Source of the DNA: a virus
DNA length: 20,113 bases
Direction: 5' to 3' (one strand)
IMG/VR virus record: IMGVR_UViG_3300048930_000112
Location: 1-20,113 of that record
Of the stretch, positions 7,453-17,892 are shown piece by piece; position 1 is the stretch's first letter; each line of letters starts with the position of its first letter. The position numbers were made by a program, and so were the translations under genes. The notes under the pieces were generated by a model. It made no database searches, had not been told where the DNA came from, and saw nothing but the letters and a program-made list of their open reading frames with translations.

Positions 7453-7528
<76 letters not shown>

Positions 7529-14252: not shown

Positions 14253-14482
14253 TGGTTAAGCGATACGACTTTTACTCCAGCAGAAATTATGTTTCGTTTG
14301 CTCACAGGGATGAGGACGAAAATGGAGGGTATGTAGCCTATGAAGATTACGCCCACCTTGAGGCGCTGATAACAGATGCGCCGCATGACCAAGAGTGTGC
14401 GAGTCTCAGGTGGTTTTCTGACGATTTCGGAGATTGCGACTGCTGGCGATCCCGCGCACTGGACACAGGGGCGAAGGGGTGA
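14252..14482 (+). CDS. Small Cys-rich phage protein, function unknown
   Basis: 76 residues from the ATG that overlaps the preceding TGA (TGATG), with AAGGAGG a little upstream. After an aromatic/acidic N-terminal part (YDFYSSRNYVSFAHRDEDEN) the C-terminal half carries H45, C49, C62 and C64 in HDQECASLRWFSDDFGDCDC followed by W65, which could bind one metal ion. This 'H..eC ... C.CW' ending recurs in small phage early proteins. The stop overlaps the GTG of the next gene. Function unknown. Confidence 0.75.
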   Translation: MVKRYDFYSSRNYVSFAHRDEDENGGYVAYEDYAHLEALITDAPHDQECASLRWFSDDFGDCDCWRSRALDTGAKG

Positions 14483-15153
14483 GCCTGGAATCGCACTCAC
14501 AAAAAAGCCCACCGAAGCGGGCTAGTTTGCGCCACCGAAGGGAGATAGCCGCTCTGTTTGTTCAGCCCGATGGGGGCTATTCGGAATTGCAGAATGTCGA
14601 TGTGTGGCCGCAAGATCGTGATGCGCGACTGTATACCGGCCCTTACCCTGTTGTGGCTCATCCCCCGTGTCAATTATGGGGCGCAATGGCGGCTGTGAAC
14701 TACGCAAGATGGGGTGGCGACCACAACAAGCCGGGTAATGATGGTGGCTGCTTTTCGTCTGCGCTTGATTCAGTCAGGCGATATGGTGGGGTGCTTGAAC
14801 ATCCTGCGAATACACGGGCTTGGGCTGCGCATGAGATTGTGAAGCCTCACACAATGGGTTGGCAGCTAACCATCGATGGCGGCTGGGTTTGTGAAGTATG
14901 GCAAAGCGCCTACGGGCATCGAGCGAATAAAGCTACATGGCTGTACTATTTTGGCGCAAACCCGCCGATAGAGCTGAAATGGGACAGGATTGTAGGAACG
15001 CATCAGATTGGACAACATGACCAGCGTGGCAAGGCGGCGAATAAACCAACCCTTGGGAAGCGAGAGGCAAACGCTACGCCACTGGAGTTCAGGGACATAC
15101 TCATTCAGCTTGCGATTAACTCAGGCACAAAAAAGGCATCCGAAGATGCCTAG
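14479..15153 (+). CDS. PPCQ-motif protein, putative DNA methyltransferase-like enzyme
   Basis: 224 residues from GTG 14479, which overlaps the previous TGA and has GAAGGG upstream. The N-terminal part (AALFVQPDGGYSELQNVDVW) leads to a conserved core YPVVAHPPCQLWGAMA (P63-P64-C65-Q66), then GGCFSSALDSVRRYGGVLEH, PANTRAW, and a C-terminal ANATPLEFRDILIQLA. PPCQ resembles motif IV of cytosine-C5 methyltransferases, whose Cys attacks the base, but the FxGxG SAM motif is not evident, so activity is uncertain. The first ~24 residues overlap a hairpin element; the true start could be later (for example near 14544, where related proteins seem to begin). The element recurs at its stop. Confidence 0.7.
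   Translation: MSLESHSQKSPPKRASLRHRREIAALFVQPDGGYSELQNVDVWPQDRDARLYTGPYPVVAHPPCQLWGAMAAVNYARWGGDHNKPGNDGGCFSSALDSVRRYGGVLEHPANTRAWAAHEIVKPHTMGWQLTIDGGWVCEVWQSAYGHRANKATWLYYFGANPPIELKWDRIVGTHQIGQHDQRGKAANKPTLGKREANATPLEFRDILIQLAINSGTKKASEDA
14501..14545 (+). repeat. Hairpin/leader element, copy 1
   Basis: A6 run (14501-14506), stem GCCCAC/GCGGGC with one mismatch (14507-14522), CGAA loop, then TAGTTTGCGC and GAAGGGAGA. It aligns without gaps to copy 2 at 15129-15173, identical at 31 of 33 positions outside the stem while the stem bases differ and still pair. It looks like a terminator stem followed by a leader with a ribosome site; here it lies inside the predicted 5' coding end of the PPCQ gene. 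Confidence 0.8.
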
Positions 15154-15252: not shown

Positions 15253-15972
15253 GTGGAACACCCCCCGCGCAACATAGTCATAGACTGGATAAATACCATC
15301 TGGGAAACCGATATGCCCGCGTCTGCCAAATTGGTAGCGTGTTGCCTGCGGCGTTACATGAATAACCAGAACGACATGGCATGGCCAAGCGTGGCTAGAA
15401 TCGCAGGTGAATGCGGCCTAAGTGAGCGATGCGTTCAGGGCTATCTGAAACTGCTTTGCAGTGAGGGTTGGCTAGTCAATGCCGGCAACAGCCAATCTGG
15501 AACCGTCAAATATCAGGCCAATACCCCCGCAAAAATTGCACCCCCCGCAGATTCTGCACCCCCGCAAAAAACAGCACTACCCCCCGCAGATTCTGCACCC
15601 GAATTAAACAAAGAATTAAACAATACTCTTTCTTTAGGGAAATCGACTTTTTCTCCACCTTCCCTAACCGAAGTCAGGCACCACTGCCTATCCAAACAGT
15701 ACGACATTGACGCCGAGGCATTCATAGCTTTCTATGAGTCTAAAGGATGGTTAATAGGAAAAAACAAAATGAAGTGCTGGAAGTCGGCATTAACAACTTG
15801 GCACAAGAGGAGCGCCAGCAATGGAATTCAAAACCCCACAAACAATTCTCGGCAAGCTGGCTACACGGGGCGACCTACGAAAGCTGATGAAGTCCGCGCA
15901 GCAAGAGAGCGGGCGCGATTGCGAGATTCCGGCGGACAGTCCGATTTGGGAAGCGTGGTTGAGACTCAGTGA
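15253..15972 (+). CDS. Lambda O-like replication initiator
   Basis: 239 residues from GTG 15253 (GGGAAG upstream). Residues 6-75 are a winged helix of the type found in phage initiators (VIDWINTIWETDMPASAKLV, WPSVARIAGECGLSERCVQG, YLKLLCSEGWLVN). A Pro/Ala-rich linker (91-116) of hexapeptides PPADSA/PPQKTA is encoded by the predicted origin iterons. Residues 153-186 (EAFIAFYESKGWLIGKNKMK then CWKSALTTWHKR) match the C-terminal domain of phage O-type and DnaT-like proteins that contacts the helicase loader. The protein should bind its own gene's iterons and recruit the overlapping P-like product. The C-terminal 50 residues share DNA with that gene. Confidence 0.87.
   Translation: MEHPPRNIVIDWINTIWETDMPASAKLVACCLRRYMNNQNDMAWPSVARIAGECGLSERCVQGYLKLLCSEGWLVNAGNSQSGTVKYQANTPAKIAPPADSAPPQKTALPPADSAPELNKELNNTLSLGKSTFSPPSLTEVRHHCLSKQYDIDAEAFIAFYESKGWLIGKNKMKCWKSALTTWHKRSASNGIQNPTNNSRQAGYTGRPTKADEVRAARERARLRDSGGQSDLGSVVETQ
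15523..15624 (+). other. Predicted replication origin: four iterons plus AT-rich tandem repeat
   Basis: Inside the O-like gene are four 18-bp units of the form CCCCCCGCAGATTCTGCA at 15523-15540, 15541-15558, 15559-15576 and 15580-15597; units 2 and 4 are identical and contain the palindrome GCAGA-T-TCTGC. They are followed at once by an AT-rich 12-bp tandem repeat, GAATTAAACAAA (15601-15612) and GAATTAAACAAT (15613-15624), then a T-rich stretch. Lambda ori has the same plan: four O-binding iterons inside gene O followed by an AT-rich unwinding region. Confidence 0.75.
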
Positions 15973-16273
15973 ATACTACGGGGCAGCATGGACATTTGGC
16001 GCTGAGCCTACCGCAACCTGGGTTTACAACTTGCGCGAGCTTACAGGCGACGAGCTGGGTAATGGAATCAGGAATCTGTCACACCATCCCGGCAGTTTCC
16101 CGCCTAATCCCGGTCAGTTTTTTGACTTGTGCAAAACCAATTTTGACTGGGAAAGGCAGTGCCATAAAATCCTTCCCACTGACAACATGATCGAAGATAT
16201 CACCGGAAAAGAAAAACGTTGCGCGGAAGGGCTGGAAAAGATCAGGGCATTGAAAGATCAATTCGGTTTTTAG
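15821..16273 (+). CDS. Lambda P-like helicase loader / replication protein
   Basis: 150 residues from ATG 15821 with GAGGAG 9 nt upstream, overlapping the O-like gene by 152 nt in another frame. The core PADSPIWEAWLRLSEYYGAA, WTFGAEPTATWVYNLRELTG, DELGNGIRNLSHH then PGSFPPNPGQFFDLCKT fits phage P-type proteins, where 'W...L..L....l..Gl......yPP.p.eF..lC' is the recurrent pattern. Lambda P delivers the host DnaB helicase to O at the origin. An internal ATG (15887) lacks a ribosome site. The function is inferred from motif and from position after an initiator. Confidence 0.8.
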   Translation: MEFKTPQTILGKLATRGDLRKLMKSAQQESGRDCEIPADSPIWEAWLRLSEYYGAAWTFGAEPTATWVYNLRELTGDELGNGIRNLSHHPGSFPPNPGQFFDLCKTNFDWERQCHKILPTDNMIEDITGKEKRCAEGLEKIRALKDQFGF

Positions 16274-16281
16274 TTGGGCAA

Positions 16282-16295
16282 GGTAACTAAGGGAG
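16282..16295 (+). repeat. Leader motif GGTAACTAAGGGAG, copy 1
   Basis: Fourteen bases ending in a ribosome site, 7 nt before the radical SAM gene ATG. The same string occurs before the next two genes (17333-17346 and 17564-17577) at nearly the same distance, and nowhere else that I found. Confidence 0.85.
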
Positions 16296-16302
16296 TATAG
16301 AC

Positions 16303-17331
16303 ATGAAAGCATACACATTGCCAACAGGGTATTTATTCACAGACCAGTACAGCAAAGGGCAGCTTGAAACGCTGTCAATTGGTGATTACGGGAAGCATTA
16401 CAACGTAAAGGCTGACTTTCTTGGGTACTCGCGCCCATTGGACGGAGTGCCGAATACATGGTGTATGCCGCTATCTGAGAAGTGGGTAGTAACCCTGTCA
16501 ACGCAGTACGGTTGCCCGATGAAATGCACATTTTGCGATGTGCCGAAAGTCGAGTGGCGCGGAAACGCAACAGTGGAGGATTTGAAGCAGCAGCTTTACA
16601 CTGCTATCGCGTTATTTCCTGGCGCCGCTTATACCGAGCGTCTGAACATCCACTTTGCGCGAATGGGAGACCCTATCTTCAACAGCAACGTGTTTGCGTT
16701 TGCGCGGTGGTGTTACGCCAACAAAAAGGCTATTTACGCCGATACAGGCTTGCGGATTGAAACCATCCACCCTGTCTTGACAACGTCGCTGCCGCGCAAG
16801 TTCAAGCAATTGGAAGCGCGCATTATGGAGTGGTGCGAAATTAAAAACGAAGTCTACAACGGGCAGGCTGGATTACAGTTCAGCATCAATTCAACCTGCG
16901 AAGATCAGCGCAATGATATGTTTGCTGGTTTGTCGCTGACGCTGCAAGAGTTCTCTCAGATTGCGGCGCGGATGCCGGAGCCGGTGAGCAGAAAATACTG
17001 CCTGAATTTCGCGTACTCGACTGATTACGAAATCGACGCGCAAAGAGTTAGGGCGCTATTTGACCCCAATAAGTTCATGTGCAAGATTACCCCTATTCAC
17101 AATAATAATGCCTGCATTGAAAACGACATTAAAACCGTAGGCGGTTATGAGCACTTTACGCCTTACGCAAAACCGGAGCAGGATTTGCGTGACGCTGGAT
17201 TCGATGTGCTGGTGTTCGTTCCATCAATCGACGAGGAGGACGGTCTTGTGACGTGCGGAAATGCAATACTTGGAGGTTCGACGCTCAAGACGGACACACA
17301 AGTTATAAAAATTCATGGCCTAGCGGCTTAA
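16303..17331 (+). CDS. RlmN/Cfr-like radical SAM enzyme
   Basis: 342 residues. LSTQYGCPMKCTFC holds the radical SAM CxxxCxxC (C71, C75, C78) that carries the [4Fe-4S] cluster. Further blocks align with RlmN in order: NIHFARMGDPIFNSNV (GMGEP block, SAM binding), VLTTSLPRKF, GLQFSINSTCEDQRND, CKITPIHNNN, and C318 in LVTCGNAILGG, matching the methyl-carrying Cys355. RlmN methylates C2 of adenine in 23S rRNA and tRNA. Two departures: T64 stands where E. coli RlmN has the resolving Cys118, and the N-terminal RNA-binding domain is short. The substrate may therefore be different (phage DNA or another RNA). A GGGAG site lies 7 nt upstream. Family call strong; reaction unknown. Confidence 0.88.
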   Translation: MKAYTLPTGYLFTDQYSKGQLETLSIGDYGKHYNVKADFLGYSRPLDGVPNTWCMPLSEKWVVTLSTQYGCPMKCTFCDVPKVEWRGNATVEDLKQQLYTAIALFPGAAYTERLNIHFARMGDPIFNSNVFAFARWCYANKKAIYADTGLRIETIHPVLTTSLPRKFKQLEARIMEWCEIKNEVYNGQAGLQFSINSTCEDQRNDMFAGLSLTLQEFSQIAARMPEPVSRKYCLNFAYSTDYEIDAQRVRALFDPNKFMCKITPIHNNNACIENDIKTVGGYEHFTPYAKPEQDLRDAGFDVLVFVPSIDEEDGLVTCGNAILGGSTLKTDTQVIKIHGLAA

Positions 17332-17332
17332 G

Positions 17333-17346
17333 GGTAACTAAGGGAG
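17333..17346 (+). repeat. Leader motif GGTAACTAAGGGAG, copy 2
   Basis: Identical 14 bases in the 21-nt gap after the radical SAM gene, 6 nt before the ATG of the four-Cys protein. Confidence 0.85.
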
Positions 17347-17352
17347 TAGGGT

Positions 17353-17568
17353 ATGAGCGAGCAAAGCGAAGCAAAAGAATCACAGGGTTACACACGGACG
17401 CTGAAGATGTGCAGTAACTGCGAGTGGTACGAGTCTGATTTAACGCCTGTCGAAAATTGGGCGGGGCAAGTTTACCACGATGAGAAAAACATCCGCTGCG
17501 GCCTTGGCGGTTTCAAGGTTCACAAGACAGCGACCTGCAATCACCACAAAGAAAAGGCCGCAGGGTAA
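17353..17568 (+). CDS. Four-Cys small protein next to the radical SAM gene
   Basis: 71 residues. A charged N-terminus (SEQSEAKESQGYTRTLK) precedes MCSNCEWYESD (C20-x2-C23), then C49 in NIRCGLGGF and C62 in ATCNHH with two His residues. The four cysteines could hold zinc or an iron-sulphur cluster. It is encoded 21 nt after the radical SAM gene with the same leader motif, so it may act with that enzyme (for example as an adaptor or electron carrier), but no direct evidence exists. No membrane span. Confidence 0.8.
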   Translation: MSEQSEAKESQGYTRTLKMCSNCEWYESDLTPVENWAGQVYHDEKNIRCGLGGFKVHKTATCNHHKEKAAG

Positions 17569-17577
17569 CTAAGGGAG
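17564..17577 (+). repeat. Leader motif GGTAACTAAGGGAG, copy 3
   Basis: Identical 14 bases, here including the TAA stop of the four-Cys gene, 6 nt before the ATG of the HTH-like gene. Confidence 0.85.
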
Positions 17578-17583
17578 AGAGCA

Positions 17584-17892
17584 ATGAAACAACACAAGCC
17601 AAGATCAGTTCAGCGGCAGGCAGTGCTAAAGCTGTTTGAGACGCAGGACAGCGTGACGAAGTACGACGCCGCAACCGCTATCGGGCTATCGCCAATCAGC
17701 GCGGCTAACCTGCTGAATGCTATGGTTCAGGATGCCGTTATCAGGCGCGGGCCGGATGTGGAGGGTAAGTCAGGGCAGGCGCTTCGCACGTTCGTAAGCA
17801 ACCGCAAGTGCGCTAACAAGTTCCTGACGATGGCGATACGCCGGAAAAATAATGATGAACTTGGGATTGAAAGTGTACGGGGATGGGCGTAA
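17584..17892 (+). CDS. Small helix-turn-helix-like protein
   Basis: 102 residues. VQRQAVLKLFETQDSVTKYD then AATAIGLSPISAANLLNAMV and VIRRGPDVEGKSGQALRTFV read as a winged helix: helix 1, a turn, helix 2 'yDAATAIGL', recognition helix 'iSAANLLNAMVqd', and a wing with 'RRGpd..gk'. The C-terminal tail is basic (AIRRKNNDELGI). Likely a DNA-binding regulator or replication accessory protein. It is followed by a structured 63-nt gap before the helicase-methyltransferase gene. Confidence 0.76.
   Translation: MKQHKPRSVQRQAVLKLFETQDSVTKYDAATAIGLSPISAANLLNAMVQDAVIRRGPDVEGKSGQALRTFVSNRKCANKFLTMAIRRKNNDELGIESVRGWA

Follow-up and report, generated by a model that had tools for sequence, protein, structure and literature searches.

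The gene at 16303..17331 (+) of the virus contig IMGVR_UViG_3300048930_000112, whose 20113 bases form the window analysed here, encodes a 342 amino-acid radical SAM protein derived from RlmN/Cfr. The protein belongs to PHROG_24834 (hereafter family C), in which a threonine occupies the place of the resolving cysteine of RlmN and Cfr, while the cysteines of the radical SAM cluster and the methyl-carrying cysteine are kept. Two other groups of phage RlmN-like proteins, A and B, serve as points of reference. The conservation of the threonine in 118 members of the family, together with linked active-site changes shared with group B, argues for a changed function and not for decay.

Genomic setting

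The radical SAM gene sits in a run of genes on the forward strand. It follows the genes of an O-like replication initiation protein (15253..15972, +; HTH_36, from Pfam and PHROG profiles) and of a P-like helicase loader (15821..16273, +; phrog_109, E=1e-6). It precedes those of a 71-residue four-Cys protein (17353..17568, +), an HTH-like protein of 102 amino acids (17584..17892, +; weak HTH_Crp_2 and weak Ren-like matches) and a fusion of an SNF2-like DNA helicase with a DNA methyltransferase that runs off the contig end (17941..20112, +; phrog_16, E=1.2e-63; phrog_67, E=1e-5, residues 493-658). A ribosome-binding-site-like motif of 14 bases, GGTAACTAAGGGAG, resembling a Shine-Dalgarno sequence, occurs in exact copies at 16282-16295 (+), 17333-17346 and 17564-17577 (3 against 0.06 expected), and precedes three consecutive genes, of which the radical SAM gene is the first.

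An earlier, sequence-only reading had placed the gene beside a four-Cys protein and two methyltransferase-like genes. The four-Cys protein is present; it has no Pfam match and no assigned function, and it clustered with no neighbour of the other family C loci. Among the two methyltransferase-like genes, the helicase fusion is clear, but the ORF at 14434-15153, upstream of the radical SAM gene, matches only phrog_12600, a PHROG with no assigned function. The window also carries a tRNA-Trp (CCA) gene (7453-7528, minus), about 60 bases of which match actinobacteriophage tRNA-Trp at 95-97%; besides this gene, no near DNA match to the window is found in the phage collection. A predicted tail-side protein of the window is similar to podovirus ejection proteins.

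Fold and family membership

The Radical_SAM, RlmN and Cfr models of Pfam and NCBIfam all match the protein below threshold: it scores 27.7 bits against TIGR00048 (RlmN), far under the curated cut-off of 290, and 25 bits against the Cfr model, whose cut-off is 530. The PHROG_24834 profile matches it with E=1e-119 over profile positions 7-326 of 336. When a profile of 16 relatives is compared with the PDB, E. coli RlmN (2.4e-8) and Cfr (6e-7) are retrieved, with alignments spanning the radical SAM core. The AlphaFold2 model, built with 61 sequences, reaches a pLDDT of 96.3 and a pTM of 0.93. Far from being unlike RlmN, it has RlmN or Cfr structures as its nine best PDB matches (TM 0.46-0.61 over ~330-350 columns). 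The best is 5hr7, the tRNA-crosslinked RlmN (E 5.7e-10 for RlmN), and Cfr 9p0p matches with E=2.8e-5. Spore photoproduct lyase (4fhg) is a weak match (E=9e-3) and not the closest radical SAM fold.

Sequence profile and predicted fold thus bear out the RlmN/Cfr-like character that had been proposed from the sequence. The short N-terminal region remarked upon at that stage is confirmed as well: the model opens with a beta-hairpin and, in the alignment with RlmN, the N-terminal RNA-binding helical domain is absent. The window protein is an RlmN/Cfr-derived radical SAM protein. It should be classified neither as RlmN nor as Cfr, because it lacks both the resolving Cys and the RNA-binding domain and scores below the family cut-off.

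Active-site residues and their conservation

In a joint alignment, E105, C118 and C355 of RlmN correspond to E22, T64 and C318 of the window protein, and the cluster cysteines to C71, C75 and C78. E22 (16366..16368, +) does not vary among cellular RlmN proteins or within any of the phage groups A, B and C. T64 (16492..16494, +), at the position of RlmN Cys118 and Cfr Cys105, stands exactly 7 residues ahead of the first cluster Cys, the same spacing as Cys118 in E. coli RlmN. The three cluster cysteines form the CX3CX2C [4Fe-4S]-binding motif (16513..16536, +), while C318 (17254..17256, +) lies within the motif TCGN and aligns with the methyl-carrying Cys355.

T64, C71, C75, C78 and C318 are invariant in all 79 non-redundant relatives, which share 46-83% identity with the window protein, and alignment A3 shows no variation at E22, T64 or any of the four cysteines. 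In an enlarged set of 119 non-redundant family C loci, Thr is found at position 64 in 118/118 readable members (117 by regular expression and L079 by eye, L047 being without that region). As the peptide patterns that fetched the family C loci exclude residue 64, this result is not a search artefact. C318 is present in 118 of the 119 loci, the exception (L367) ending early, after EEDAGRINVW; the C318 motif is contained in one of the two patterns of the 208-stretch scan mentioned below and absent from the earlier fetch patterns. The replacement of Cys118 by T64, with the cluster cysteines and C318 kept, therefore stands as initially described, the residue at the 118 position being a Thr and not a conserved Cys.

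The same reading had put forward C54 (16462..16464, +) as another resolving residue. This candidate is ruled out: position 54 is a Cys in just 21/79 members, and an Ile or Val in most. The other cysteines are less conserved than those of the active site (C178 in 47/79, C233 in 31/79, C260 in 25/79, C271 in 49/79), and no Cys besides C71, C75, C78 and C318 is conserved among the 79 non-redundant members.

Further changes are fixed in family C: from RlmN to the window protein, M176 becomes A119, G177 becomes R120, N307 becomes K261 and N312 becomes H266. R120 and K261 are also found in the sister clade B, where the position of M176 is a Thr in the joint alignment. One scan yielded 208 confirmed viral stretches with a member; a family so widespread is unlikely to be decaying.

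Distant relatives and a separate methyl carrier

The distant phage RlmN-like proteins fall into the two further groups. In a tree of 82 proteins, A, B and C each form one side of a branch (supports 99/98, 99/92 and 100/99, respectively), and B, C and the cellular protein G138 split from cellular RlmN and A with a support of 99/96. If the root is assumed on the RlmN side, this pattern would fit a single loss of Cys118. G138, a bacterial protein (L122, 264-2487, minus), has an Ile in place of Cys118 and retains the carrier Cys; genes for a nucleotidyltransferase and another radical SAM protein lie next to its own. Another distant bacterial relative is an 807 amino-acid ORF with a long TTG-started frame (L121, 790-3213, minus), which combines an RlmN-like core with a membrane region at the N-terminus and with a domain of the PNP_UDP_1 nucleosidase family. 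In this core, N stands in place of Cys118 and Ser in place of Cys355. To note, the contig of one family C member also encodes a second, more distant RlmN-like protein (L004, 660-1556, minus), with a Cys ahead of the cluster and a CG motif at its end.

In group B, the Cys118 position is a Gly in 69/69 proteins; this Gly belongs to one of the two peptide patterns used for the fetch, and the 36 of 69 members without that pattern still have it. The group B enzyme is also predicted with the RlmN fold (pLDDT 91), and it stops before the Cys355 region. The missing segment, ACGQL, is found on a separate protein of ~40-60 residues in 60/63 loci, with a consensus that reads roughly MEEIKxQLEEAGYDYAVAIATKAEIEAGAACGQLSIITE. 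A carrier profile made from 38 examples detects it in 60/63 group B, 0/66 group A and 0/119 family C loci; because some of these group B loci also went into building the profile, it is the zero counts in A and C that act as genuine controls. The carrier mostly starts 3-23 nt past the enzyme stop (examples are L105, 6627-6758; L106, 6623-6904; L107, 6673-6795), elsewhere 0.3-5.6 kb downstream, and its ORF has a clear Shine-Dalgarno sequence in some loci. In Vibrio phage D479 the carrier segment is in tandem.

A programmed frameshift or stop read-through was considered for this split and is disfavoured, because the carrier lies in differing relative frames, has its own start and is in many loci 0.3-5.6 kb away. 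Group B would represent an RlmN-like enzyme in two parts, with a free mini-protein as the methyl carrier. In 25/63 loci, another radical SAM protein, of ~283 amino acids, is encoded near the group B enzyme (for example L452, 8222-9082, and L434, 9224-9988).

Gene neighbourhoods and NAD salvage

Clustering of the neighbours reveals no constant partner gene of family C. The commonest neighbour clusters, reaching about 10 of 80 loci, are C5 DNA methyltransferases, DnaB and N6 DNA methyltransferases. Genes of NAD salvage, counted as NAMPT, NMNAT (some with NUDIX), NAD synthase and PRPP synthase, are enriched close to the radical SAM gene in family C (14/684 neighbours within three genes against 5/1409 further out, p=2.8e-4) and in group A (32/377 against 21/804, p=1.5e-5); these p-values assume independent neighbours and are weakened by relatedness. 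A NAD salvage gene is present in 19/63 group B loci, with a near/far contrast that is not significant (p=0.19). After clustering at 70%, NAMPT or NMNAT lies within 5 genes in 7/50 (C), 7/19 (B) and 10/26 (A) clusters.

The order NMNAT - radical SAM - NAMPT is observed in 11 A, 3 B and 4 C loci, and the reverse order never among the loci examined. The arrangement NMNAT - RlmN-like - (carrier) - NAMPT occurs in L391, L038, L330, L374, L478, L483 and L490; in the phage L391 (8001-10548), NMNAT, the group B enzyme, the carrier and NAMPT follow one another. The link of the phage RlmN-like groups to NAD salvage is real as adjacency, but limited. It concerns only 11/119 family C loci, and the 20 kb of the window contain no NAD gene. 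In the reverse test, an RlmN-like gene is found in the flanks of only 6/80 phage NAMPT loci, so NAD salvage does not require an RlmN-like enzyme. The NAD salvage contexts and the nucleosidase fusion of L121 suggest a small nucleotide as a candidate substrate.

Proposed mechanism and alternative explanations

Class A radical SAM methylation has its textbook example in the two-cysteine mechanism of RlmN and Cfr, where the second Cys (118/105) removes the ring proton and breaks the enzyme–substrate bond. We infer the activity, chemistry and substrate class of the window enzyme from its family, fold and residue pattern. The explanation that we favour, and regard as somewhat probable on balance, is an active, phage-specific enzyme that descends from the class A methylases RlmN and Cfr, with a substrate that is probably not A2503 and a release that proceeds without a thiol base. 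The window protein would be RlmN-type in the first half-reaction. E22 would deprotonate C318, as E105 of RlmN deprotonates its carrier C355 (PMC9692996), and C318 would receive a methyl group from the first SAM. A second SAM would undergo cleavage at the C71/C75/C78 cluster; the 5'-deoxyadenosyl radical so formed would abstract a hydrogen from S-methyl-C318 to give a Cys-S-CH2 radical, which would add to an sp2 carbon of the substrate.

The second half-reaction is where the two known enzymes and family C would part. Cys118 of RlmN and Cys105 of Cfr are reported to be the base that allows the crosslinked intermediate to break down, and the second Cys is reported to be indispensable for substrate release in both (PMC9692996, PMC13001441). 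The RlmN C118A variant traps the crosslink (PMC9692996) and the Cfr C105A or C105S variants build it up (PMC13001441), so a Thr is not expected to be a simple replacement for the Cys. As the resolving residue is an invariant Thr, proton removal and bond breaking would be done by something else, possibly by a newly placed active-site group such as K261, H266 or R120; alternatively, the substrate may form an adduct that resolves without a thiolate. The missing N-terminal RNA-binding domain and the concerted change of several catalytic residues make 23S rRNA A2503 an improbable substrate. The score of 27.7 bits against the 290 of the RlmN family model counts against this explanation; so do two further points, namely that C318 could be a hydrogen-atom donor and not a methyl carrier, and that the enzyme could be single-turnover.

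The single-turnover case would leave a persistent Cys-CH2-base adduct, the protein staying covalently on a nucleic acid or nucleotide as a block, tag or trap. Exactly such a crosslink accumulates in the RlmN C118A and Cfr C105A/C105S variants, no conserved Cys takes the place of C118, and the small separate carrier of clade B, in tandem in Vibrio phage D479, would suit a carrier that is consumed. In family C, however, the catalytic protein itself would be consumed, and the concerted, fixed changes to R120, K261 and H266 suggest that another mechanism has taken over; this explanation is considered unlikely. An ordinary tRNA/rRNA C-methylase that aids phage translation, with another base replacing Cys118, is judged to be of the same low probability. 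RlmN, its homologue, modifies tRNA A37 besides rRNA (PMC5130265). The tRNA genes near the family C gene amount to a weak association: two loci hold eight each and the window has its tRNA-Trp, but most loci are without any nearby (present in 8/60), the tRNA-Trp of the window lies ~9 kb off on the opposite strand, and the RNA-binding N-terminal domain is absent.

The substrate could also be a nicotinamide-type nucleotide: the phage clade without the resolving Cys, whose carrier is free in the sister branch, may act on it within NAD salvage operons, and not on rRNA. A cationic pyridine ring would be a natural acceptor for the Cys-S-CH2 radical, for which a thiolate base may be unneeded. The product would then be a C-methylated or carrier-linked NAD-type molecule that perhaps escapes host NAD-destroying enzymes. 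We hold this rather unlikely. A non-methylating radical chemistry, in which C318 would act on a nucleotide or DNA lesion as a hydrogen-atom donor, appears quite improbable. It would be analogous to spore photoproduct lyase, where a conserved Cys is the hydrogen-atom donor and which is among the weak fold matches. The conservation of a single non-cluster Cys is compatible with it, as is the Ser that replaces C318 in the distant bacterial L121, with its nucleosidase-family and membrane domains. Yet the protein keeps E22, the counterpart of the RlmN Glu that readies the carrier Cys for methyl loading by deprotonating it, and the fold is far nearer to RlmN (5.7e-10) than to the lyase (9e-3). As for a degenerate, inactive RlmN copy, it would account for the loss of the residue reported as indispensable for release, but the other four cysteines and dozens of further residues are invariant across very diverse phages, and such a copy is highly improbable.

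Significance

With a Thr for the resolving Cys in 118/118 relatives, the family must complete the reaction in some other way or on some other target, or leave it unfinished. The interest lies chiefly in the fact that an entire natural family, along with its split sister clade, does not follow a catalytic mechanism that has been studied in depth. A large natural family without the second Cys, and with an active site changed in step, points to another ending, another substrate or a use of the adduct. The sister clade with its separate carrier would offer a two-component system for the separate study of methyl loading, radical formation and transfer, and the recurrent NAD-salvage context in three phage groups provides a concrete, testable substrate class.

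Comparison with known systems

Phage RlmN-like proteins without the resolving Cys, or with a separate carrier, are unreported in the literature searched, the coverage of which was partial. The window protein shares with E. coli RlmN (3rfa, 5hr7) the fold, the CX3CX2C motif, the carrier Cys (C355/C318) and the Glu (E105/E22), as well as the (R)MGEPxxN and SxxxxxxxR motifs. It differs by Thr64 in place of Cys118, by the absence of the N-terminal RNA-binding domain, by an insertion of ~30 residues between E22 and the radical SAM core, and by the replacement of M176, G177, N307, N312 and R344. Cfr (9p0p) belongs to the same mechanism class and has the same fold; the window protein is without its Cys105, and the other differences are as for RlmN.

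Among phage proteins, PHROG_24834 is the window protein's own family, to which PHROGs assigns no function; one member, WAK79139 of Bacteroides phage Versailles, shares 54% identity with it. The group A proteins (Salmonella phage Arash, Vibrio phage 496E54-1) are likewise short and without the N-terminal domain, but keep both cysteines in 80/80 cases and branch with cellular RlmN. Group B (Kehishuvirus 'tikkala', Moorella phage MTATph1, Vibrio phage D479) is the sister group, with no resolving Cys and with R120 and K261; it is set apart from family C by a Gly instead of the Thr and by a methyl-Cys carried on a separate small protein in 60/63 loci.
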